Assembly (NCBI GenBank): GCA_002007405.1
Contig: JYIN01000001.1
Span: 1 to 32,714 of the forward strand
Direction: 5' to 3'
Length of the DNA: 32,714 nt
From: Gammaproteobacteria bacterium Gsub
GTDB lineage: Bacteria; Pseudomonadota; Gammaproteobacteria; PS1; Pseudothioglobaceae
The position numbers and the translations under genes are program-made. The notes beneath the pieces were generated by a model. It had not been told where the DNA came from. It made no database searches and was given only the letters and a program-made list of their open reading frames with translations. Position 1 is the stretch's first letter. Each line of letters starts with the position of its first letter. Below are positions 232 through 17,044 of the stretch, one piece after another.

Positions 232-978
232 TTAACATCTTTTACTTTCATATTCGAAATTTGCATAATCTTCTTTATAATACTCTATTATTTTTTCTTT
301 TACTTCACTGCTAACTTCAACTTTTGCTTTTTTTGATCTGTTTTCATGAGGAAGTGATTCATCTATATTTAGAACTTTGCATATCTCTTGCCAATCATCT
401 TTTATGTTTTCTATCTTTCCTAACTTATCCAGCTGAGTACTATCTTTTATATACTTAGAGTATGGTTCCCAGTGATGGTTGTGTATTTTCATCATTTTTC
501 CCACAAAGTCTTCAAAACTCATTGTTTTAGCTGCAGACCCAAACAATGCTTTCATCTGACTAAAACGAAAGCTATCCTCTTGATTAAAAAACATTTGAAA
601 ATTACTAACAGTTCTTTTGACAGGTTCTCTAACAAAACCAAATTTATAATAATCTTTGAACTCTTCAATAGATTCTTCAAAAGTACCATAGTACATGCTA
701 AACTCGCAGTTTCCTACAGTTACACCACTTGACATAGAGAAGTCAACCCTATGCTTTTGATCATACATTGTGTCTTTTAAATATAATTTTTCTAACATGT
801 TAGTTTTCAACTGTGGTGCCCCCCCCATTTTATGATAATGGTAAGCTCGCACAATATTTTCTTTTCGGGGTCTAATCTGTAGTGCTTTTTTTATACTACT
901 ACATGCAGCTTTTGGTGTTTCGTAGTAGACTGCTCTAAGCTTGTGTGAGTCAGATGAACATGTTAAATCTACAGTCAC
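232..978 (-). CDS. PAPS-dependent sulfotransferase (Sulfotransfer_2-like)
   Basis: The 248-residue product has the two cofactor-binding signatures of PAPS sulfotransferases. A 5'-phosphosulfate loop-like stretch TPKAACSSIKK lies at residues 21-31, and a 3'-phosphate-binding stretch VREPVKRTVSNF at 116-127. The family transfers sulfate from PAPS to a sugar or other hydroxyl; the acceptor cannot be read from sequence. The chosen start is GTG at 978, with a weak GGA six bases upstream; the next in-frame upstream codons reach a stop at 997-999. A much better ribosome site (AGGAG, 1046-1050) precedes an ATG at 1036 in a different frame that runs 28 codons over this start, so the 5' end may have suffered a frameshift. 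Codons 51-54 contain eight consecutive G. Flanked by gene fragments, it looks acquired. Domain call fairly sure, start uncertain. Confidence 0.75.
   Translation of the reverse strand: MTVDLTCSSDSHKLRAVYYETPKAACSSIKKALQIRPRKENIVRAYHYHKMGGAPQLKTNMLEKLYLKDTMYDQKHRVDFSMSSGVTVGNCEFSMYYGTFEESIEEFKDYYKFGFVREPVKRTVSNFQMFFNQEDSFRFSQMKALFGSAAKTMSFEDFVGKMMKIHNHHWEPYSKYIKDSTQLDKLGKIENIKDDWQEICKVLNIDESLPHENRSKKAKVEVSSEVKEKIIEYYKEDYANFEYESKRC
819..826 (-). repeat. G8 homopolymer inside the sulfotransferase gene
   Basis: Eight C on the plus strand give eight G in the coding strand, spanning the Met51-Gly-Gly-Ala codons. It is the longest G/C run I noticed in this AT-rich window; the next longest are six bases (in murE and pyk). 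Gain or loss of one base would truncate the protein, as in known slipped-strand contingency loci. In the sequence given the frame is open (ON). Confidence 0.8.
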
Positions 979-7508: not shown

Positions 7509-8486
7509 TCAAATATTATCAAGAAACTTTTTTATTCTAAGAAGGGGTTGTTTGAGTTTTGCAATTAGGAACTTAAAAATATCACTGCGTTTTGCCACAA
7601 ATTTATTATCAATAGGAGGGTTTAAGAAGATTGATTCAAAGCGTTGAAAAATATTTGTGTCATTGACATATTGATTTTCAATATTATTAACAAAGACAGG
7701 GGCGGATAAATATTTTTGATACAAGGCATCATTGTTATCTACCTCAACAATATGTTTAATAACCGCATCAAAATTTTGATAGTTATGACAATTGATAAAC
7801 GCCTCGGGATTAAAATCTTTTGCTATTTCTTTATTGCCCCAATAAATTGGAATGCTGCCTGATAGAAATGCAAAAAAGATTTTTTCAGTGGTGTAGCCAG
7901 GATGGGAACTGTTTTCAAAAGCAATAGTAAATTTGTAACGACTTAAAAAATCCACTTTTTTATTTTTCCTACTGACCGTATAGCCCAGATTATTTAATAC
8001 CTCTCCACCCGAATCTATGGGTTTGTATTGTTGTAATTGGTGAAAAAAATCAATCCGCTCTTTGGCGTTTTTATTGGAGTAGAGAAAATTACAAAACAGA
8101 CGATTTTCTTGGGCTATTTTTTCTGCTTGTTGGGGTTTTTGTTTGAGGATTTTAAAATTGGGGTCTACTTTTTCTGAGCTGAGTTTGTAAAGCGGTAGAC
8201 GATAATTTTTCGATGTTACTGGATAGTCAAAACTAAAAGCATAATCACACTGCCTAAAATTAGGACGCACATTTTCTGAGGCGTAGAAAATTCGCGGACA
8301 ATGGTATTTTAAGAAACGATGTCCAAAACAAGAGTAAATTAAAAAATCAGGTTTATCCGATAATACCAAATCAAAACGCTTAGAAAGCAAAATAAAAAGC
8401 GCATTATTTCTAATTTCTTTTTCATTTTGCGGGTGCCAAAAATCGGTAAAATTTATTTTGACTTTAGGTTTTGGTAAGCGAGGCAT
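7509..8486 (-). CDS. GT10-family fucosyltransferase-like glycosyltransferase
   Basis: The C-terminal half carries the GT10 (alpha-1,3/1,4-fucosyltransferase) signature: FENSSHPGYTTEKIF, then GSIPIYWGN, IAKDFNPEAFIN. GT10 enzymes transfer fucose from GDP-fucose to GlcNAc-type acceptors, building Lewis-like structures; in some bacteria the family may use other sugars. The product is 325 residues from ATG 8486, which starts PRLPKPKVKINFTDFW, a normal GT10 beginning. A 44-residue upstream extension on the same frame is open but lies antisense to the neighbouring sulfotransferase and looks spurious. The basic C-terminus (residues 290 onward, rich in Lys/Leu/Phe) may touch the membrane. Start codons of this gene and the divergent sulfotransferase are only four bases apart. 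No GDP-fucose synthesis gene is in the window. Confidence 0.85.
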   Translation of the reverse strand: MPRLPKPKVKINFTDFWHPQNEKEIRNNALFILLSKRFDLVLSDKPDFLIYSCFGHRFLKYHCPRIFYASENVRPNFRQCDYAFSFDYPVTSKNYRLPLYKLSSEKVDPNFKILKQKPQQAEKIAQENRLFCNFLYSNKNAKERIDFFHQLQQYKPIDSGGEVLNNLGYTVSRKNKKVDFLSRYKFTIAFENSSHPGYTTEKIFFAFLSGSIPIYWGNKEIAKDFNPEAFINCHNYQNFDAVIKHIVEVDNNDALYQKYLSAPVFVNNIENQYVNDTNIFQRFESIFLNPPIDNKFVAKRSDIFKFLIAKLKQPLLRIKKFLDNI

Positions 8487-8490
8487 ATAT

Positions 8491-9300
8491 TTGATAAGTT
8501 TTAATCGAAAATTAAACGAAATTGGGCGTAGAATTAAACACAAATTCAAGCCAAATAACAGAAAAGTTGATTTTATCATTATTGGTACGCAAAAAGGTGG
8601 GACAACCGCATTAGACACTTATCTTCGGCAACAACACCGGCAAATTTGCATGGCAGATTATAAAGAATTACATTATTTTGATAACGATGATTTTTGGACT
8701 GATAATGCCCCTAATTATCGTTATTATCAAAATTTATTTAGTCCTAAAAAATCACATAAAATCATTGGTGAGACCACCCCAGTTTATCTGTATTGGAATC
8801 CAGCATTGCAACGCATTTATAACTACAATGCCCAATGCAAACTGATTGTTTTATTAAGAAACCCTATTGAACGAGCATATTCACATTGGAACATGAGCCG
8901 TGATAATAACAAAGAGCAGCTGCCTTTTTTACAAGCCCTAAAAGCTGAGTTAGAACGAGCTAAAAAACAAGCGCCCGAGCAATTAAGAACACACTCTTAC
9001 ATTGACAGAGGCCTGTATGTCAAACAATTACAAACCCTATGGCATTATTTTCCAAAAACCCAGACTTTGATTTTAAAAAGCGAAGATTTAAAACAAAATC
9101 CGCAACAAACTTTGAACAGGGTTTGTGATTTTTTGGGTGTTGAACGGATTGAAAACCTAACCCCCATTCAAGCAAATTCTAGAAGTTATCTACGCTCAAT
9201 AGATGCAGCGGAAAAACAATATTTATTAGATATTTTTACCCCAGAGATTAGAAAATTAGAAAAAACATTGGGCTGGGATTGTGCTAATTGGTTAATCTAA
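8491..9300 (+). CDS. PAPS-dependent sulfotransferase (Sulfotransfer_1-like, NDST-type)
   Basis: A basic N-terminus leads into VDFIIIGTQKGGTTALD, the 5'-phosphosulfate loop of heparan-sulfate-type sulfotransferases (about residues 26-42 of the 269-residue product). LLRNPIERAYSHWNM near 120-133 is the 3'-phosphate site, and SYIDRGLYVKQLQ and ILKSEDL follow as in that family. It would transfer sulfate from PAPS to a sugar of the surface glycan. No ATG is available upstream of the conserved loop. TTG 8491 is chosen because GAGG lies seven bases upstream; TTG 8458 is the alternative and would overlap the divergent GT10 gene. It ends six bases from the end of the opposing GT2 gene. Confidence 0.88.
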   Translation: MISFNRKLNEIGRRIKHKFKPNNRKVDFIIIGTQKGGTTALDTYLRQQHRQICMADYKELHYFDNDDFWTDNAPNYRYYQNLFSPKKSHKIIGETTPVYLYWNPALQRIYNYNAQCKLIVLLRNPIERAYSHWNMSRDNNKEQLPFLQALKAELERAKKQAPEQLRTHSYIDRGLYVKQLQTLWHYFPKTQTLILKSEDLKQNPQQTLNRVCDFLGVERIENLTPIQANSRSYLRSIDAAEKQYLLDIFTPEIRKLEKTLGWDCANWLI

Positions 9301-9306
9301 AAAGAG

Positions 9307-10296
9307 TTATTTTTTAGTATCCTTTAAGATAAAATCGTTGTAATCAACACTATTATTGGCAACCCCGCGCCAATGTTTAAATAGAAAAAGATAAGTTTTA
9401 ACGATCGTCTTTAGGGTTTGCCACTGCCACGGATAAAAACTTAATAAAAATTTAACATAGCCTAATTGTCCGTATAAATAAGCAATGACATTAATAAATT
9501 GATGTTGGTAAATACACTGATGCCAGCAAATAAATTGGTAAATAATTTGCATTTTTACTAACTGGGTATTGTTGCAACTCACCTCTTCGCCTTGGTGGTG
9601 TATCAATTTAAAATCAGGCAGGTATCGCAGCGCGCCTCTGCCATAATATTGATAAACTTGGTAAGACAATATGGCATCCTCGGCACAAGACCAAAGAATA
9701 AAATTGGCGTTAAACGAAAAATGCTCAAAAACGACCTTTCTAAACGCCATATGGCAGCCTTGTATCCACTCGACATCACACGGTTTTTTGCAGACCCGAA
9801 CGCCGTGGGTGTTCGTACCAGACCTCAATATGCGCATATTAATGCCGTCATACAATAATAATATATTGATTATTTTATGAAACCACCAATAGGTTTTTTT
9901 AAGCAAACGAATAAGATAATTATTGATATTGGGTGCAGACGGATAAATAATTTGACCAGTTAAACCCATTACTGATGCGTTGTTGGTAAAATATCGTTGG
10001 GCAACTTCTACATAATCGCAGCTCAGCTCGGTATCATCATCAATAAAAAATAACACCTCGCCACTGGCATGTTCAATACCTTTATTCCTAGCCTGTGCTG
10101 CTGATTTAATGGGGTGAAAATAAAGCCGAATATTAAGCGTGGTAAATGTTGAAACCAGGCGTTTAGTACTATCAATATCACCTTGTTCAACAATGATAAT
10201 TTCATCAAAGCCTTGTGTAAGTTTGTAAATTGAATCCAAACAAAGCCCTAAATCTTTACGGCGGTTTAAGGTTGGAATAATGAGCGAAGTCTTCAC
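9307..10296 (-). CDS. GT2-family glycosyltransferase
   Basis: The 329-residue product is a GT-A fold glycosyltransferase. It has SLIIPTLNR at 4-12, the nucleotide-sugar region with QARNKGI at 68-74, the metal-binding FFIDDDTEL (DDD at 86-88) and a CAEDAILSYQ catalytic-base stretch. It is a close paralogue of the genes at 12339 and 13322 (shared FDEIIIVEQGD and C-terminal DYNDFI-type ending). Donor and acceptor cannot be inferred. Its ATG overlaps the stop of the upstream sulfotransferase gene (ATGA), so the two are translationally coupled. It would act at the cytoplasmic face of the membrane in glycan assembly. Confidence 0.88.
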   Translation of the reverse strand: MKTSLIIPTLNRRKDLGLCLDSIYKLTQGFDEIIIVEQGDIDSTKRLVSTFTTLNIRLYFHPIKSAAQARNKGIEHASGEVLFFIDDDTELSCDYVEVAQRYFTNNASVMGLTGQIIYPSAPNINNYLIRLLKKTYWWFHKIINILLLYDGINMRILRSGTNTHGVRVCKKPCDVEWIQGCHMAFRKVVFEHFSFNANFILWSCAEDAILSYQVYQYYGRGALRYLPDFKLIHHQGEEVSCNNTQLVKMQIIYQFICWHQCIYQHQFINVIAYLYGQLGYVKFLLSFYPWQWQTLKTIVKTYLFLFKHWRGVANNSVDYNDFILKDTKK

Positions 10297-11222
10297 AAAT
10301 AGTGGTATTTTTTTAATTTTTGGGCATCCAAATTAAATTCTTTTGCAAAATCAACATTTTTAATATTCAATAATGCTGCTATTTCTTCTTTTTTTTGTAA
10401 ATCTGGCATGTGGTGTGCTACTGCTCTTTGAATTTTTAATTCTCTTAGCCATTTGATCAATAATAGTTTGCGTAATAAAAAACGCAACGGACGCGGGTAA
10501 AAGTACAGAGAATGGTTAATAAAATGCTCTAAAGTGATGGGGTGTGAATATTTGCTGTTTTTGCTAGATTTTTTTATATTGGTTTTTGGTAATAAATAAG
10601 AGGTGGGCAACACTAAGTTTAAATATTGACTTAACTGTTGTAAATAATGCTCGGGGTCGTATTTAATGTCTTCAAATAATAAAATTGTGAGCTGCGGAAA
10701 ATTTTTTTTTAAGATGGATAAATACACCTCCAAAAAATACATTTGGTAACATGGTGCATGCGGATTTTTAGTCAATTCTACAATAAATTTATCCCAAGTG
10801 TTTCTTTTTTTATCAGCAAAGAAACGCCAATAATAATCTTCAACAAAATGTGAAAACAAATAATCAACTGGACATCTGATTGAAGTCAGCACGCTTAAAT
10901 CATCGTTAATAAATAATTGGCGTAAATTGCTAAAAATAACCTCAAAATTGCTAATAAATGAAACGCTGATATTTTCTTCGCTGATGATGTTTGTTTTCTT
11001 CTCATCTAAAAATGGTTGCAGACTTTGTCTGAGTTGTTGGATTTTTTCTACACTCAATAGCTCATCTTTTATTTGGAAAAAGACTGGGTTAAATTGGTTG
11101 TATTGATAGGCTTTGCCCAAAAAATAGACTTTATTTTGCTGGTGCAGGGGTAAAAAAACATTGTTTTGCAAACTGGTTGTTGCGGTCTTTGGCAGTCCAA
11201 TATGCAGTAGAATCTTATACAT
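10293..11222 (-). CDS. Sulfotransferase-family protein
   Basis: The 309-residue product begins with HIGLPKTATTSLQ at residues 7-19, the 5'-phosphosulfate-binding loop of sulfotransferases. SIRCPVDYLFSHF at 114-126 has the position of the 3'-phosphate site but lacks the usual Arg-(Asn/Asp)-Pro order, with Cys-Pro-Val instead. The rest is divergent, so it belongs to a different subfamily from the other two sulfotransferases here. Its coding strand contains a run of nine A (10702-10710). It diverges from the WecA-like gene by 51 bases and is coupled by a 4-base overlap to the following GT2 gene, implying that the two products work on the same glycan. Confidence 0.78.
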   Translation of the reverse strand: MYKILLHIGLPKTATTSLQNNVFLPLHQQNKVYFLGKAYQYNQFNPVFFQIKDELLSVEKIQQLRQSLQPFLDEKKTNIISEENISVSFISNFEVIFSNLRQLFINDDLSVLTSIRCPVDYLFSHFVEDYYWRFFADKKRNTWDKFIVELTKNPHAPCYQMYFLEVYLSILKKNFPQLTILLFEDIKYDPEHYLQQLSQYLNLVLPTSYLLPKTNIKKSSKNSKYSHPITLEHFINHSLYFYPRPLRFLLRKLLLIKWLRELKIQRAVAHHMPDLQKKEEIAALLNIKNVDFAKEFNLDAQKLKKYHYL

Positions 11223-11273
11223 AAGTCTGGTGTTTGGGTAAAATGGGCGCTTGTTTTTTGTCTTTAATTTATT

Positions 11274-12323
11274 TTGCTCACTCTGCTTTTATTGGTTTTC
11301 TTTATTTCTACACTCATCAGTTGGTTGTTAATTAAATTCGTCCCCTGCCCCAATAAGCCAGTGCTTGGGGTGCAAAATATACACCAAAAAAATACCTTGA
11401 GGATTGCTGGCATCGCCATTATATCAGCATTGTATGTTGGGGTGTTAATCACCCGTCAAGACCAAAATTTATCATTGCTATTAGCATTGTCGCCAGTATT
11501 TTTAATCGGCATTACTGAAGATATTACCCAAAAAATCCCCAGCATATATCGCCTGTTATCGGCCTTTTTATCCGCCTTTATAGCCCTTAGCATTTTAGGT
11601 GTTGAGTTAAACCATATCAACTGGCCATGGTTTGACCAAACAATTTTAAGCATTGGTCCAATCGCAATCCTCTTTAGCGTATTTATGATAGCTGGCATCT
11701 CCCATGCGGCTAATGTGATTGATGGCGCTAATGGTCTTTTACTCGGACACAGTATTCTGGCTGCTGCTATTTTTCTAACAGTGGCTTATCAAGTGAATGA
11801 TTTACTCATTATTAACGCCAATCTTATCTTTATTTTCAGCCTACTGGGTGTGTTTGTTTTTAATTTTCCGCATGGCAGAATATTTGTTGGTGATGGAGGT
11901 GCTTATATCATTGGCGCTTTTTTAGCCATCATTGCCCTGTCTCTAGTTGCTAAGCATCATGAAGTATCGCCATGGTTTCCTTTGGCAGTTATGATCTACC
12001 CAGTGTTTGAGGCACTTTTTAGTTTATATAGACGCAGCGTTAGTCGCCATTATCGCTTAGACCAGGCAGACAGGCGCCATTTGCATTCGTTATTGTATCG
12101 CCGCTTGCTCAATAACCATTTTAAATATTTATCTGTAAAGTTCGGTAGAAATGCTGCCACCTCAATATTGATTTGGCTATTCACTGCACCTTTTATGTTG
12201 GTAACACTACTGGCTTGGCAACAACATTTATTGATGATCACAACTGCCTTGGTATTTTGTGTATGCTACTTATTTGTTTATTTTGCTATTGTTCGTTTTA
12301 AAAATCGCTGGGGAAAATTTTAA
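11274..12323 (+). CDS. WecA/MraY-family polyprenyl-phosphate sugar-1-phosphate transferase
   Basis: A 349-residue polytopic membrane protein with about ten hydrophobic segments and the family's cytoplasmic motifs: NVIDGANGL, NFPHGRIFVGDGGAYIIG and the DRRHLHSLLYRR loop near 265-275 that resembles the HIHH region of WecA. Such enzymes start surface-glycan synthesis by moving a sugar-1-phosphate, usually a HexNAc-phosphate, from a UDP-sugar onto undecaprenyl phosphate. The start is TTG 11274: an in-frame stop at 11265-11267 excludes a longer form, and the first membrane helix begins right here. No ribosome site is visible. It heads the six-gene plus-strand glycan operon, which supports an initiating role. 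MraY itself is less likely because the gene lies outside a murein cluster. Confidence 0.87.
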   Translation: MLTLLLLVFFISTLISWLLIKFVPCPNKPVLGVQNIHQKNTLRIAGIAIISALYVGVLITRQDQNLSLLLALSPVFLIGITEDITQKIPSIYRLLSAFLSAFIALSILGVELNHINWPWFDQTILSIGPIAILFSVFMIAGISHAANVIDGANGLLLGHSILAAAIFLTVAYQVNDLLIINANLIFIFSLLGVFVFNFPHGRIFVGDGGAYIIGAFLAIIALSLVAKHHEVSPWFPLAVMIYPVFEALFSLYRRSVSRHYRLDQADRRHLHSLLYRRLLNNHFKYLSVKFGRNAATSILIWLFTAPFMLVTLLAWQQHLLMITTALVFCVCYLFVYFAIVRFKNRWGKF

Positions 12324-12338
12324 AAACCATGCCGACTT

Positions 12339-13313
12339 ATGTCAAAAAAACCAAACAAAGCAAACACAACCAGCCTAATCATTCCTACTTTAGATCGCAC
12401 CCATGATTTGAGGCGTTGCCTAACATCCATTTGTCAATTAAACCAACAATTTGATGAAATTATTATCATTGAACAAGGGGATGTACATAAAACTAAGGAG
12501 ATGATTGCCCAATTTGATGGCTTAAATATCTGGGTATATTTTCACCCTACAAAATCATTAACCCAAGCACGAAATCTAGGTCTTAAACAAGTACGAGGCG
12601 AATTTATTTTCTTTATTGATGACGACACTGAGCTAGATCAAGATTACCTCAAAGTTGGCTTAGATTATTTTGAGCAACATCCTAAAGTAATGGGTATAAC
12701 TGGACCTTTGTCTCAAGATATGTGTATTTTTGATCGGTCTTGGAAATTAAAGATTTATCAAACACTATTTTTACTAAATGGTCACAGTTTTAATATATCA
12801 CGGTCGGGGTATTATCAAAATAATTGGGGCAAAGTCAAAAATCAGGCAGTGCAATGGTTGGCGGGGTGTAGTATGGCATATCGTCGCCAAGTATTCACCC
12901 AGGGGTTTAACTTTAACGAAAATTTTATCGCTTGGTCATCAGGCGAAGATATTATGTTTAGTTATCAAATTTATAAATTTTATGGCAAGGGTGCGCTGAT
13001 GTATGTGCCTGAATTTTATCTGCAACACCATGAAAATGAAAAACACAACCTAACACAAACAAACTTACTCAAAATGCGAATAATCTATCATTTTATTTTT
13101 TGGAAAAAAGAAGTGCATCAAGGCTCGTTTTTTAATTTTATCTGCTATCTGCACAGCCAAATTGGCTTATTTTTATTTGAACTCTACCCCAAACGCAGGA
13201 TGCTGACAACACTAAAAACCCTATTAAAATCCTATGGTTATTTATTAAGGCACCATAGGAAAATACACAATAATCAAATTGACTATAATCAATTTATTTT
13301 ATCCAATCATTAA
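12339..13313 (+). CDS. GT2-family glycosyltransferase
   Basis: The 324-residue GT-A glycosyltransferase has SLIIPTLDR at 12-20, QARNLGL at 76-82 and FFIDDDTEL at 91-99 (DDD 94-96), with GEDIMFSYQ later as the probable catalytic-base region. It is a tandem paralogue of the next gene; an 87-base stretch coding for residues near 20-48 is identical at DNA level between them, while the rest has diverged. It follows the WecA-like gene by 15 bases. It probably adds one sugar to the lipid-linked chain; specificity unknown. Confidence 0.9.
   Translation: MSKKPNKANTTSLIIPTLDRTHDLRRCLTSICQLNQQFDEIIIIEQGDVHKTKEMIAQFDGLNIWVYFHPTKSLTQARNLGLKQVRGEFIFFIDDDTELDQDYLKVGLDYFEQHPKVMGITGPLSQDMCIFDRSWKLKIYQTLFLLNGHSFNISRSGYYQNNWGKVKNQAVQWLAGCSMAYRRQVFTQGFNFNENFIAWSSGEDIMFSYQIYKFYGKGALMYVPEFYLQHHENEKHNLTQTNLLKMRIIYHFIFWKKEVHQGSFFNFICYLHSQIGLFLFELYPKRRMLTTLKTLLKSYGYLLRHHRKIHNNQIDYNQFILSNH
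12396..12482 (+). repeat. 87-bp exact repeat, copy 1 (in GT2 gene)
   Basis: This stretch is identical base for base to 13355-13441 in the following paralogue, and sequence diverges immediately on both sides. Exact identity limited to one block inside otherwise diverged paralogues suggests recent gene conversion. Confidence 0.95.
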
Positions 13314-13321
13314 TATCTAAT

Positions 13322-14281
13322 ATGGTTAGTAGTTTAATTATCCCAACTCTAAACCGCACCCATGATTTGAGGCGTTGCCTAACATCCATTTGTCAATTAA
13401 ACCAACAATTTGATGAAATTATTATCATTGAACAAGGGGATATTGACAAAACCAAACAGTTGGTTGCCATATTTAAACAATTAAATATCAACTTGTATTT
13501 TTATTCAATAAAGTCAGCAGCCCAAGCTAGGAATAAAGGCATTGATAAAGCGCGTGGTAAGTTTTTATTTTTTATTGATGATGATACCCAATTATTTGAT
13601 AAAAACTATATAAATACAGCGCTTGATTATTTTAAAAAACATCCAAAAGTTGTGGCACTGACGGGGAAAATACTGATAGATAAAAAGAATTATCAACAAA
13701 ATATATGGGCACGGTTTTATCACCGCTTGTTTTTATTAAACGGGGCAAATATTAATATTCGGCGCTCAGGTACTCATAACGATGGCTGGTTTAGCGATAA
13801 AATCCAAAATGCACAATGGCTATTTGGTGGTCATATGGTTTGTAGAGATTTGGTATTTAAACAAGGATTTAGGTTTAATAAAAATTTTATTCGACGCTCA
13901 GATTATGAAGATGCAATATTTGGTTACCAACTTTATAAATTTTATGGTGAGGGTGCCTTGGTTTATCTGCCGACTTTTAAGCTCAAACATTTTGATGCAA
14001 ATGAGATGGTTAGCACTTATGCTGATGCGATCAAAATGCAGGTTGTATATCAGTTTATTTTCTGGCAACAAACTGTATCCCGGCATTCATTATTTGATTT
14101 AATTTGTTATTGTTATGCTCAAATTGGTATTGTTTTAATTGAGATTTTCCATCCAGAACGGGGGAAAAATCGCTGGTTAAAATTTAAGGTTTTTGTAAAA
14201 TCTTATATTTATATTTTAAAAAATCATCAAAAAATAGCCAATAACAGCATTGACTACAATCGATTTATCACCCATGGCTGA
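13322..14281 (+). CDS. GT2-family glycosyltransferase (tandem paralogue)
   Basis: The 319-residue product has SLIIPTLNR at 4-12, QARNKGI at 68-74, FFIDDDTQL at 83-91 (DDD 86-88) and YEDAIFGYQLYKFYG. It resembles both the preceding gene and the minus-strand GT2 at 9307-10296: the QARNKGI motif is shared with the latter, the 87-base exact block with the former, giving a mosaic look. It starts eight bases after its neighbour and overlaps the next gene by eight. Donor and linkage unknown. Confidence 0.9.
   Translation: MVSSLIIPTLNRTHDLRRCLTSICQLNQQFDEIIIIEQGDIDKTKQLVAIFKQLNINLYFYSIKSAAQARNKGIDKARGKFLFFIDDDTQLFDKNYINTALDYFKKHPKVVALTGKILIDKKNYQQNIWARFYHRLFLLNGANINIRRSGTHNDGWFSDKIQNAQWLFGGHMVCRDLVFKQGFRFNKNFIRRSDYEDAIFGYQLYKFYGEGALVYLPTFKLKHFDANEMVSTYADAIKMQVVYQFIFWQQTVSRHSLFDLICYCYAQIGIVLIEIFHPERGKNRWLKFKVFVKSYIYILKNHQKIANNSIDYNRFITHG
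13355..13441 (+). repeat. 87-bp exact repeat, copy 2 (in GT2 gene)
   Basis: Second copy of the block at 12396-12482, 959 bases downstream and in the same orientation. Recombination between the copies would fuse the two glycosyltransferase genes in frame. Confidence 0.95.
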
Positions 14282-15233
14282 CACACTCATCTCAGTTGTG
14301 ATGCCAGTTTATAACGCCCAAAAATTTCTAGCTGAGGCGATTGAGTCTATCCTGCACCAAACTTACCCGCACTTTGAATTTATCATTATCAACGATGGCT
14401 CAACGGATGAGAGTACGGATATTATTCAGCAATATGCCCAGCAAGACAAGCGGATTTTTGTTATCTCTCAAGAAAATAGAGGTATTGCCGAGGCACTAAA
14501 TAATGGCATTAGGAACAGTAAAGGGCAATATATTGCCAGAATGGATGCCGATGATATATCATTGCAGGAGCGGCTAATCACGCAGTTATCGTTTCTGGAA
14601 AAACATCCAAATATTGATGTGTTGGGTTGCGATTTTCTCATCATTGATAAACACGGAAAGACAACCCAAAAAGTTACCACTGCTAAAACGCCACAAGATA
14701 TTGCCATCACCTTATGTACGCAGATACCATTTACCCATTCAACTGTGATGATGCGTCGACAAATATTTGAGCGTTTTGCCTATGAAAATACCCCTTGCGA
14801 GGATTATTGGCTATTTGCCCAATGTTTTCATCAGGGTAATTTTGCAAACAGCAACCAAACTTTATTTAAATATCGCCAAGATTACGGACATTCTCTAAGC
14901 GATACAAAAAGGCTTGAAATGCGTACCTACAATAAAACAGTTGGGAGATATTTTTTTAACAAAAACCAAGCCTATCTTAAAAAAATCATCAATTCTAAAC
15001 ATTTGAGCAAACATTTTATCGATGTATTGGCGGTCATGTTTGCACATGGCTATATTAAATTCAGCCTATTTTATTTGTCCAAAACACCAAAATATTGGGT
15101 ATCTTTTTCTTTTCTAACAGTGCGTTATCGTCTTGCCACTATGATGTATTATTTAAAATACAATAAAAAATACTATGCTTTGTATCGGCTGGTTAATTTT
15201 ATTAAAAAAATATTGATGATCAACAAAACATGA
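14274..15233 (+). CDS. GT2-family glycosyltransferase (WaaE/SpsA type)
   Basis: The 319-residue product shows the classical GT2 pattern: ISVVMPVYNAQKFLAEAI at 6-23, FIIINDGSTDES at 36-47, GIAEALNNGI and RMDADDI at 89-95 (the DxD-type metal site), then ITQLSFLEKHP. The C-terminal 60 residues are hydrophobic and basic. It belongs to a different GT2 branch from the three IIPTLNR paralogues. ATG 14274 is chosen over TTG 14250; it overlaps the end of the preceding gene by eight bases, and the conserved beta-strand starts right after it. Its own stop overlaps the next start (ATGA), so it is translationally coupled within the operon. Confidence 0.9.
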   Translation: MADTLISVVMPVYNAQKFLAEAIESILHQTYPHFEFIIINDGSTDESTDIIQQYAQQDKRIFVISQENRGIAEALNNGIRNSKGQYIARMDADDISLQERLITQLSFLEKHPNIDVLGCDFLIIDKHGKTTQKVTTAKTPQDIAITLCTQIPFTHSTVMMRRQIFERFAYENTPCEDYWLFAQCFHQGNFANSNQTLFKYRQDYGHSLSDTKRLEMRTYNKTVGRYFFNKNQAYLKKIINSKHLSKHFIDVLAVMFAHGYIKFSLFYLSKTPKYWVSFSFLTVRYRLATMMYYLKYNKKYYALYRLVNFIKKILMINKT

Positions 15234-16219
15234 AAATTTTAATGGTTGCCAACAATGATATAAAAACCATGGGTGGTATTGAGACCCATATCCGCCAATT
15301 ATCAACAGAATTAAAAAAGAATTCCCAAGTTACGGTGGCGCATCTGTTCCCAAGTCGGCGGTTTTTGGGGTTAAAAAAAATACCAAAAGTAGCCGATTTT
15401 AATAAAATCTCAAGCAATTTTGATGTGTTACATTTTCATGGGTTTAGTGCTGTTTTTGTCATCCTTTTGGCTTTTTTTGCCAAAAAACAAAACCAAGTTA
15501 GATGGGTTTATACCCCACATATGCACCCATTTAATAAACATCGGCGGGCTTTTTTGGCAAAATTATTTTTCCATATATTAACCAAACATGTGCTTAAAAA
15601 AATTGACAAAATCATTGTTTTATCAAACCATGAGAAGGGTTTCTTTTTAGATTTTCTAAATATTGATAAGATTGCCTTAATTCCCAACGGCATTGAATCG
15701 GTGAATCAAAATATATTGGCAAAAAAAATGAGAAAACATTTTTTATTTATTGGGCGTTATGAGTATAACAAAAGACCATGGATTATTGAAAAAATTGCCC
15801 CACTTTTCCCACAATACCACTTTGTTTTTGTTACCAATAAACAAAATTTAGTTGCAAAAGACAACATTATTTATCACTACAATATCAGTGATTCGGCAAT
15901 TAACGCACTTTACAGCAGCAGTCTTGCCACGATTATCCCCTCTAAATATGAAGCATTTAGCATGGTGGCACTGGAGTCACTAGCGGCTGGGACTCCGATT
16001 ATTATTACTCAGAATGTGCAAATTAAAGAATACCTTACTCCCAATGTTATGGTTTTGATTGAAGAAAAGAACACCCAACAAAATCTCATCTATGCCATTC
16101 AAAAAATAATCAACACCAAGGACAGTCTATTTTATCAATCTTGCCAGGATTCGGTGCAAATTGCCAAACAATTTCTTTGGTCTAATATTGCAAAACAAAC
16201 ACTAAATCATTATCAATAA
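15230..16219 (+). CDS. GT4-family (GT-B fold) glycosyltransferase
   Basis: The 329-residue product has the N-terminal MGGIETHIRQL typical of GT4 retaining glycosyltransferases and, in the C-terminal Rossmann domain, LFIGRYEYNKRP and PSKYEAFSMVALESLAAGTP, whose Glu-X7-Glu motif binds the nucleotide sugar. A hydrophobic segment at about 74-84 may contact the membrane. It is the only GT-B enzyme of the glycan island. It is coupled by ATGA to the upstream GT2 gene and is followed by another GT2 gene after six bases. Confidence 0.92.
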   Translation: MKILMVANNDIKTMGGIETHIRQLSTELKKNSQVTVAHLFPSRRFLGLKKIPKVADFNKISSNFDVLHFHGFSAVFVILLAFFAKKQNQVRWVYTPHMHPFNKHRRAFLAKLFFHILTKHVLKKIDKIIVLSNHEKGFFLDFLNIDKIALIPNGIESVNQNILAKKMRKHFLFIGRYEYNKRPWIIEKIAPLFPQYHFVFVTNKQNLVAKDNIIYHYNISDSAINALYSSSLATIIPSKYEAFSMVALESLAAGTPIIITQNVQIKEYLTPNVMVLIEEKNTQQNLIYAIQKIINTKDSLFYQSCQDSVQIAKQFLWSNIAKQTLNHYQ

Positions 16220-16225
16220 ACCAAT

Positions 16226-17044
16226 ATGCAGACAAAATTTTCAGTGTTGATGTCAATATACAACCAAGAAAAAGCAATCTATTTTAATAGGGCAATGCAA
16301 TCTATTTGGGACGAACAAACGCTAAAACCTGATGAAATTATTTTAGTTGAAGATGGAAAACTAACAGCCCCGTTATATCAAAACATAGATGTGTGGGCAA
16401 ACAAACTGGGAGAGAAACTCACTATTGTGCCCCTTAAACACCATGTTGGAATCAGTGGCGCTCTTAATGCTGGGTTACAAAAATGTCGTTATGAGATCAT
16501 TGCTAGAATGGACAGTGATGATATCGCCTTAAAAGATAGATTTGCCAAACAATTAGCGGTATTTAAAAATCACAGCGTTGATATTGTTAGCTCGTGGGTG
16601 GGTGAATTTGATAAAACTGAAGATAACATAGTCTCATATCGTAAATTACCACAATACCACAATCAAATTATTAAATTTAGCAAAAAAAGATCGCCCATTA
16701 ACCACCCTGCTGTCATGTATAAAAAATCCATTATTAAAAATGCTGGCAACTACCCTTGTAAAATTATCCTTGAGGATTATTATCTGTGCGTTAAAGCAGC
16801 GTTAGCAGGCGCTAAATTCTACAACATTCAACAACCTCTGGTTAATACTCGAATCGGACATAAACATATTAGCAGACGGAGCGGCTGGCAATATGCACTA
16901 GGCGAGTATCAAATGCAAAAAAAATGCTTTCAACTAGGTTATATTAATTTTTTTGAATTTATTAGAAACATTAGCCTGCGTTTTATTGTAAGAATAATGC
17001 CCAGAAAAATAGTCACCGTTATCTACAAAATATTAAGAAGGTAG
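16226..17044 (+). CDS. GT2-family glycosyltransferase
   Basis: The 272-residue GT-A glycosyltransferase has FSVLMSIYNQEKAIYF at 5-20, EIILVEDG at 37-44, GISGALNAGL and RMDSDDIALKDRF at 94-106 (DSDD metal site), INHPAVMYKK and EDYYLCVKAALAGAKF. This pattern resembles enzymes that add galactose or similar sugars to O-antigen or capsule chains, but the sugar cannot be told. It is the last gene of the plus-strand glycan operon; no flippase, polymerase or exporter follows in the window. Confidence 0.9.
   Translation: MQTKFSVLMSIYNQEKAIYFNRAMQSIWDEQTLKPDEIILVEDGKLTAPLYQNIDVWANKLGEKLTIVPLKHHVGISGALNAGLQKCRYEIIARMDSDDIALKDRFAKQLAVFKNHSVDIVSSWVGEFDKTEDNIVSYRKLPQYHNQIIKFSKKRSPINHPAVMYKKSIIKNAGNYPCKIILEDYYLCVKAALAGAKFYNIQQPLVNTRIGHKHISRRSGWQYALGEYQMQKKCFQLGYINFFEFIRNISLRFIVRIMPRKIVTVIYKILRR

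Follow-up and report, generated by a model that had tools for sequence, protein, structure and literature searches.

A glycosyltransferase island with sulfotransferases and a GT10 homologue likely builds a sulfated surface glycan in a sulfur-oxidising gammaproteobacterium

The closest described counterpart of the locus discussed here is that of Vibrio sp. KMM 8419, a marine Gammaproteobacterium producing a sulfated capsule of solved structure (PMC11641403). In the portion of that report available to us, 3'-phosphoadenosine 5'-phosphosulfate (PAPS) synthesis genes serving the polysaccharide, several sulfotransferases placed among glycosyltransferases, sugar genes and Kps transport genes share one 80-gene cluster with no mention of a family 10 glycosyltransferase (GT10), and its authors further propose an O-antigen locus that has a sulfotransferase of its own (PMC11641403). 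The island that we describe occupies positions 7,509 to 17,044 of a 32,714-base window, which is the whole contig C9 (JYIN01000001.1) of Gammaproteobacteria bacterium Gsub (Pseudothioglobaceae; GCA_002007405.1), a 1.37-Mb genome in 14 contigs that is 100% complete. It is another instance of the sulfated capsule and O-antigen loci, with a GT10 gene added and the PAPS genes located away from the island. Unlike in the Vibrio strain, the parts are scattered over several contigs and the PAPS genes are joined to those for GDP-fucose.

We consider it likely that this island builds a lipid-linked surface glycan that is sulfated by PAPS-dependent sulfotransferases and probably fucosylated by the GT10 enzyme. 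In the pathway that we infer, including its substrates, linkage order, cell-surface location and expression, a WecA-type enzyme would load the first sugar phosphate onto undecaprenyl phosphate, five GT2 enzymes and one GT4 enzyme would extend the glycan, the two sulfotransferases of the island would put sulfate on its sugars, and GT10 would add a branch, probably of fucose. PAPS would be made by ATP sulfurylase (Sat) and adenosine 5'-phosphosulfate (APS) kinase (CysC), the by-product 3'-phosphoadenosine 5'-phosphate (PAP) would be cleared by CysQ, and manC-gmd-fcl would provide GDP-fucose. The product would then be flipped and ligated by machinery encoded elsewhere, for which one of three Wzy_C proteins is a candidate ligase, polymerase or oligosaccharyltransferase. 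If this is true, an autotroph with sulfate as a waste product spends ATP on sulfating its own surface.

Family calls on window proteins were judged against Pfam curated cut-offs, and every island gene named in the initial annotation is present, with matches above them. Sulfotransferase 1 (8491..9300, plus strand; open reading frame from 8458) matches Sulfotransfer_1 (PF00685, 1.1e-20), as does the divergent sulfotransferase 3 (10293..11222, minus strand; 7.8e-5, 22.6 bits against a cut-off of 22), while sulfotransferase 2 (232..978, minus strand), which lies outside the island, matches Sulfotransfer_2 (PF03567, 3e-17). Each of the three carries a 5'-phosphosulfate-binding (5'-PSB) motif followed by a 3'-phosphate-binding (3'-PB) motif for PAPS (PKAACSS/REPVKRTVSNF, QKGGTT/RNPIERAYSHW and PKTATT/RCPVDYLFSHF). 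Among PDB entries, sulfotransferase 1 comes nearest to 3rnl (1.3e-22) and to heparan sulfate 3-O-sulfotransferase (1.7e-16), with which it shares the PF00685 sequence family and the PAPS motifs, and sulfotransferase 3 reaches SULT1A1 with an E-value of 0.0016; no PDB relative of sulfotransferase 2 was found by sequence. Viral contigs were searched for relatives of both sulfotransferase 2 and sulfotransferase 3, plasmids for those of sulfotransferase 3 and phages for those of sulfotransferase 2, in each case without a match.

The genome also holds the genes for making PAPS, on contigs other than that of the island: Sat is encoded at C7:95728 (PF01747 match, 291 bits) and cysC at C2:71380. The latter belongs to a same-strand run, manC-gmd-fcl-cysC-cysQ, in which gene ends are close or overlapping and whose CysC, CysQ, Fcl and ManC products all score above NCBIfam cut-offs. 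Because manC-gmd-fcl run together with cysC-cysQ on this contig, the donors PAPS and GDP-fucose are probably co-expressed. A role of cysC in sulfate assimilation was considered and rejected, since the matches to the PAPS_reduct fold in the genome are DndC, SspD and a TilS-like protein; neither CysH nor CysD was found in the genome, and CysC therefore most likely serves sulfotransferases only. In seven relatives, a sulfotransferase gene is found no more than about 2 kb from cysC, which is sometimes accompanied by cysQ. These loci of the same bacterial family likewise pair APS kinase and PAP phosphatase with sulfotransferases, but their sulfotransferases are mostly proteins of about 600 amino acids fused to TPR domains, whereas those of the present genome are short and placed among glycosyltransferases, and its cysC-cysQ stand with gmd-fcl. 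The PAPS-dependent glycan sulfation envisaged from the window is supported by the genome, and sulfation is very probably the purpose for which PAPS is made.

The GT10 fucosyltransferase homologue (7509..8486, minus strand; open reading frame to 8618) matches FucT_N (2.6e-25) and Glyco_transf_10 (9.8e-23) with 89 and 81 bits against cut-offs of 27 and 24. Similar to the Helicobacter pylori alpha-1,3-fucosyltransferase, also a GT10 enzyme (2nzw, 5zoi), it combines FucT_N with a GT10 C-terminal domain, both covered by the phmmer match to 2nzw (6e-43), and the alignment of the two retains the stretches FENxxxxGYxTEK and ENxxPNF. We take the former to be the conserved GDP-fucose region and the latter to hold an acidic residue. 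As listed, the open reading frames 7509-8618 and 8458-9300 are arranged head to head with overlapping 5' ends; GT10 more likely starts at 8486 (MPRLPKPKVKINF, the point at which its FucT match sets in) and sulfotransferase 1 at 8491.

In contrast to its domain structure, the placement of this protein sets it apart from the Helicobacter enzyme. At least 551 GT10 relatives were found among 84,980 species genomes, and in a tree of 77 GT10 rows the window protein falls into a supported clade (SH-aLRT 95) separate from the Helicobacter row. Its clade-mates come from Ca. Thioglobus sp. KZ2-2019 and from metagenome-assembled genomes (MAGs) of Gammaproteobacteria, Myxococcota, Bacteroidota and KSB1. 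Three of five clade-mates have a sulfotransferase gene at a distance of 34 bp to 4.5 kb from GT10, compared with one of the 70 others (Fisher p 6e-4), as counted with iterated profiles that were partly seeded by the clade's own sulfotransferase matches, a strict motif expression having missed true ones; two loci of the clade are cut by contig ends. A tree-based shuffle test of the association was weak, with 46 of its 500 shuffles reaching equally low values; we regard the association, which comes from 80 loci, as a lead and not as proof. It is conceivable, if rather doubtful, that this GT10 subclade and PAPS sulfotransferases move across phyla as a module for sulfo-fucosylated glycans, and that the supply of PAPS and GDP-fucose has been coupled in one operon to feed the module in this sulfur-oxidising lineage. 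In a Myxococcota MAG (L024:10025-11620), a close GT10 relative and the Sulfotransfer_2 gene behind it are 34 bp apart.

The remaining island genes provide for initiation and extension. The initiator, a WecA-type polyprenyl-phosphate sugar-1-phosphate transferase (11274..12323, plus strand), matches Glycos_transf_4 (PF00953, 1.7e-25) and scores under the cut-off of the WecA equivalog. All five GT2 glycosyltransferases match PF00535: GT2 a (9307..10296, 1.1e-20) on the minus strand, and GT2 b (12339..13313, 4.9e-22), GT2 c (13322..14281, 7e-21), GT2 d (14250..15233, 7.2e-39) and GT2 e (16226..17044, 2e-20) on the plus strand, where the GT4 glycosyltransferase is also encoded (15230..16219; PF00534 1e-17, PF13439 3.2e-15). 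Pfam thus confirmed the whole inventory first read from the window: GT10, two island sulfotransferases of different subfamilies and a third at 232-978, a WecA-like initiator, five GT2 enzymes and one GT4 enzyme. The tandem genes GT2 b and GT2 c share an identical 87-bp block (12396-12482 = 13355-13441) and are about 60% identical elsewhere, pointing to a probable recent gene conversion. The island is located between a Ysc84 gene and tkt, and its genes have a GC content of 0.31-0.39, compared with 0.38-0.44 for flanking housekeeping genes. The window also encodes SoxB, which scores above its NCBIfam cut-off.

Several observations weigh against the sulfated and fucosylated glycan proposed above. 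The island lies apart from cysC, and its sulfotransferases are linked to their PAPS source by genome inventory only; the PF00685 match of sulfotransferase 3 is borderline, only 0.6 bits over the cut-off; and single-sequence AlphaFold models of sulfotransferases 2 and 3 were unusable (pLDDT 36 and 37). For the fucose claim, the weakest point is gmd: fcl and manC are intact, but the sole gmd (C2 ~72.9-73.9 kb; L018:2880-3910) has an in-frame TAA at codon 294, near 73.0 kb. This gene matches PF16363 over positions 1-332 with the one TAA inside and the frame open on both sides, it is 86.5% identical to the intact 343-amino-acid GMD of relative G051, in which the 48 residues past the stop are conserved, and no other match in the genome scores at GMD level. 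The stop is either an assembly error or else a recent loss of GDP-fucose synthesis. If it is real, GT10 is left without its donor and the coat carries sulfate but no fucose, GT10 being idle or using another donor; we hold this to be a serious possibility, if a tentative one, to which GT10, fcl and the remaining gmd, all without other signs of decay, run counter, as does the chance of an assembly or strain-level error. The fucosylation suggested by the initial annotation accordingly stays plausible on the strength of the GT10 enzyme, which resembles the H. pylori protein, and of the existing fcl, manC and gmd, undermined as it is by the stop in gmd, and may have been lost unless that stop is an assembly error. 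Also adverse is the export step, for which the search covered PF01943 and comparison with a PglK-like flippase: no match to the Wzx family PF01943 was found in the genome, although 13 of 14 control genomes give matches, and a PglK-like flippase, as found beside the GT10 gene of KZ2-2019, was rejected, the best match here being MsbA. No flippase, polymerase or sugar-nucleotide gene lies within the island, and the notion that the pathway is completed elsewhere holds in part, as nucleotide sugars, PAPS synthesis and three Wzy_C proteins are encoded outside it and no Wzx was found. These three mutually related proteins (PF04932, 652-685 amino acids), together with the missing Wzx match, could instead indicate that a PglL/PilO-like Wzy_C moves the lipid-linked glycan to protein or pilin rather than into an O-antigen or capsule. 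The 685-amino-acid member (L109:7982-10039, C5), whose gene adjoins type II secretion and pseudopilin genes, is a candidate pseudopilin glycosyltransferase. Nevertheless, we find protein glycosylation unlikely: within Pfam the Wzy_C proteins match PF04932 only, with no PglL-specific domains, one of their genes sits among ribosomal-protein genes, and the lipopolysaccharide genes of the organism imply a need for a WaaL-type ligase.

Two further proposals concern what such a coat would be for. Sulfation plus GT10 activity had been presented as typical of animal glycans, which is overstated in view of at least 551 bacterial GT10 stretches and the known sulfated capsules of marine bacteria (PMC11641403). 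A Lewis-like, sulfated coat that mimics the host in symbiosis would fit the resemblance of GT10 to H. pylori FucT and of sulfotransferase 1 to animal heparan sulfotransferases (1.7e-16); however, 3rnl is a closer match to sulfotransferase 1 than the animal enzymes are, and GT10 occurs widely among bacteria from many habitats. We surveyed the family in 83 genomes, one per species and including the present one, counting sulfotransferases by PF00685. GT10 occurs in six and sulfotransferases in 19 of these genomes, and both occur only in the one described here. With this genome excluded, sulfotransferases are found in 15 of 29 species of one other genus, often beside cysC, versus 3 of 53 elsewhere (Fisher p 3e-6, a value that ignores relatedness and genome completeness), and in none of 12 species each of genera g5 and g8. 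Genus g5 consists of compact, mostly single-contig genomes and g8 includes KZ2-2019; from genome size and general knowledge, we presume both to be animal symbionts. Host mimicry is not supported by this distribution, and we consider it very improbable. Another purpose could be the avoidance of phages or predators by a horizontally acquired, fast-changing glycan island, for which being different would outweigh the exact sugar. Glycan genes resembling those of the island were absent upstream of tkt in 19 relatives, two of whose stretches were short at contig ends (L197, L199), and for this reason the island is, as far as sequence comparison tells, lineage-specific at the tkt site. This absence, the low GC content, the 87-bp block in GT2 b and c, which points to recombination, the spread of the GT10 clade over several phyla and the Dnd- and Ssp-type genes of the genome all agree with avoidance, while no mobile-element genes were seen inside the island. 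We regard this purpose as quite possible, short of probable; it is compatible with the sulfated glycan proposed here, being a matter of purpose and not of mechanism. The same 19 relatives led us to reject an island ancestral to the family, as did family member G001, whose WecA homologue is isolated, beside thioredoxin- and Rho-like genes. The same genome (C57; L023:2338-3330) has a GT10 gene, 41% identical, that stands alone between TRAP-transporter genes.

An APS kinase for which no assimilatory partner was found suggests a genome-based predictor of sulfated glycans, namely cysC without cysH and beside sulfotransferase or fucose genes. The association of GT10 with sulfotransferases points to enzymes possibly able to make sulfo-fucosylated glycans, and, with gmd interrupted, the claim of fucosylation can be tested directly. 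A literature search on Thioglobus and sulfotransferases retrieved nothing specific. Contig C8 encodes a second initiator, of the WcaJ/WbaP type, and, by our own reading, a putative PglF-like dehydratase. The gene for the 652-amino-acid Wzy_C protein (L107:11214-13172, C14) lies between an elongation factor G-like gene (fusA) and a ribosomal-protein gene, a site usually occupied by tuf. Finally, this 1.37-Mb genome of a sulfur oxidiser carries genes for DndC/DndD-like and SspD-like DNA phosphorothioation (C6:127 kb; C2:115 kb).

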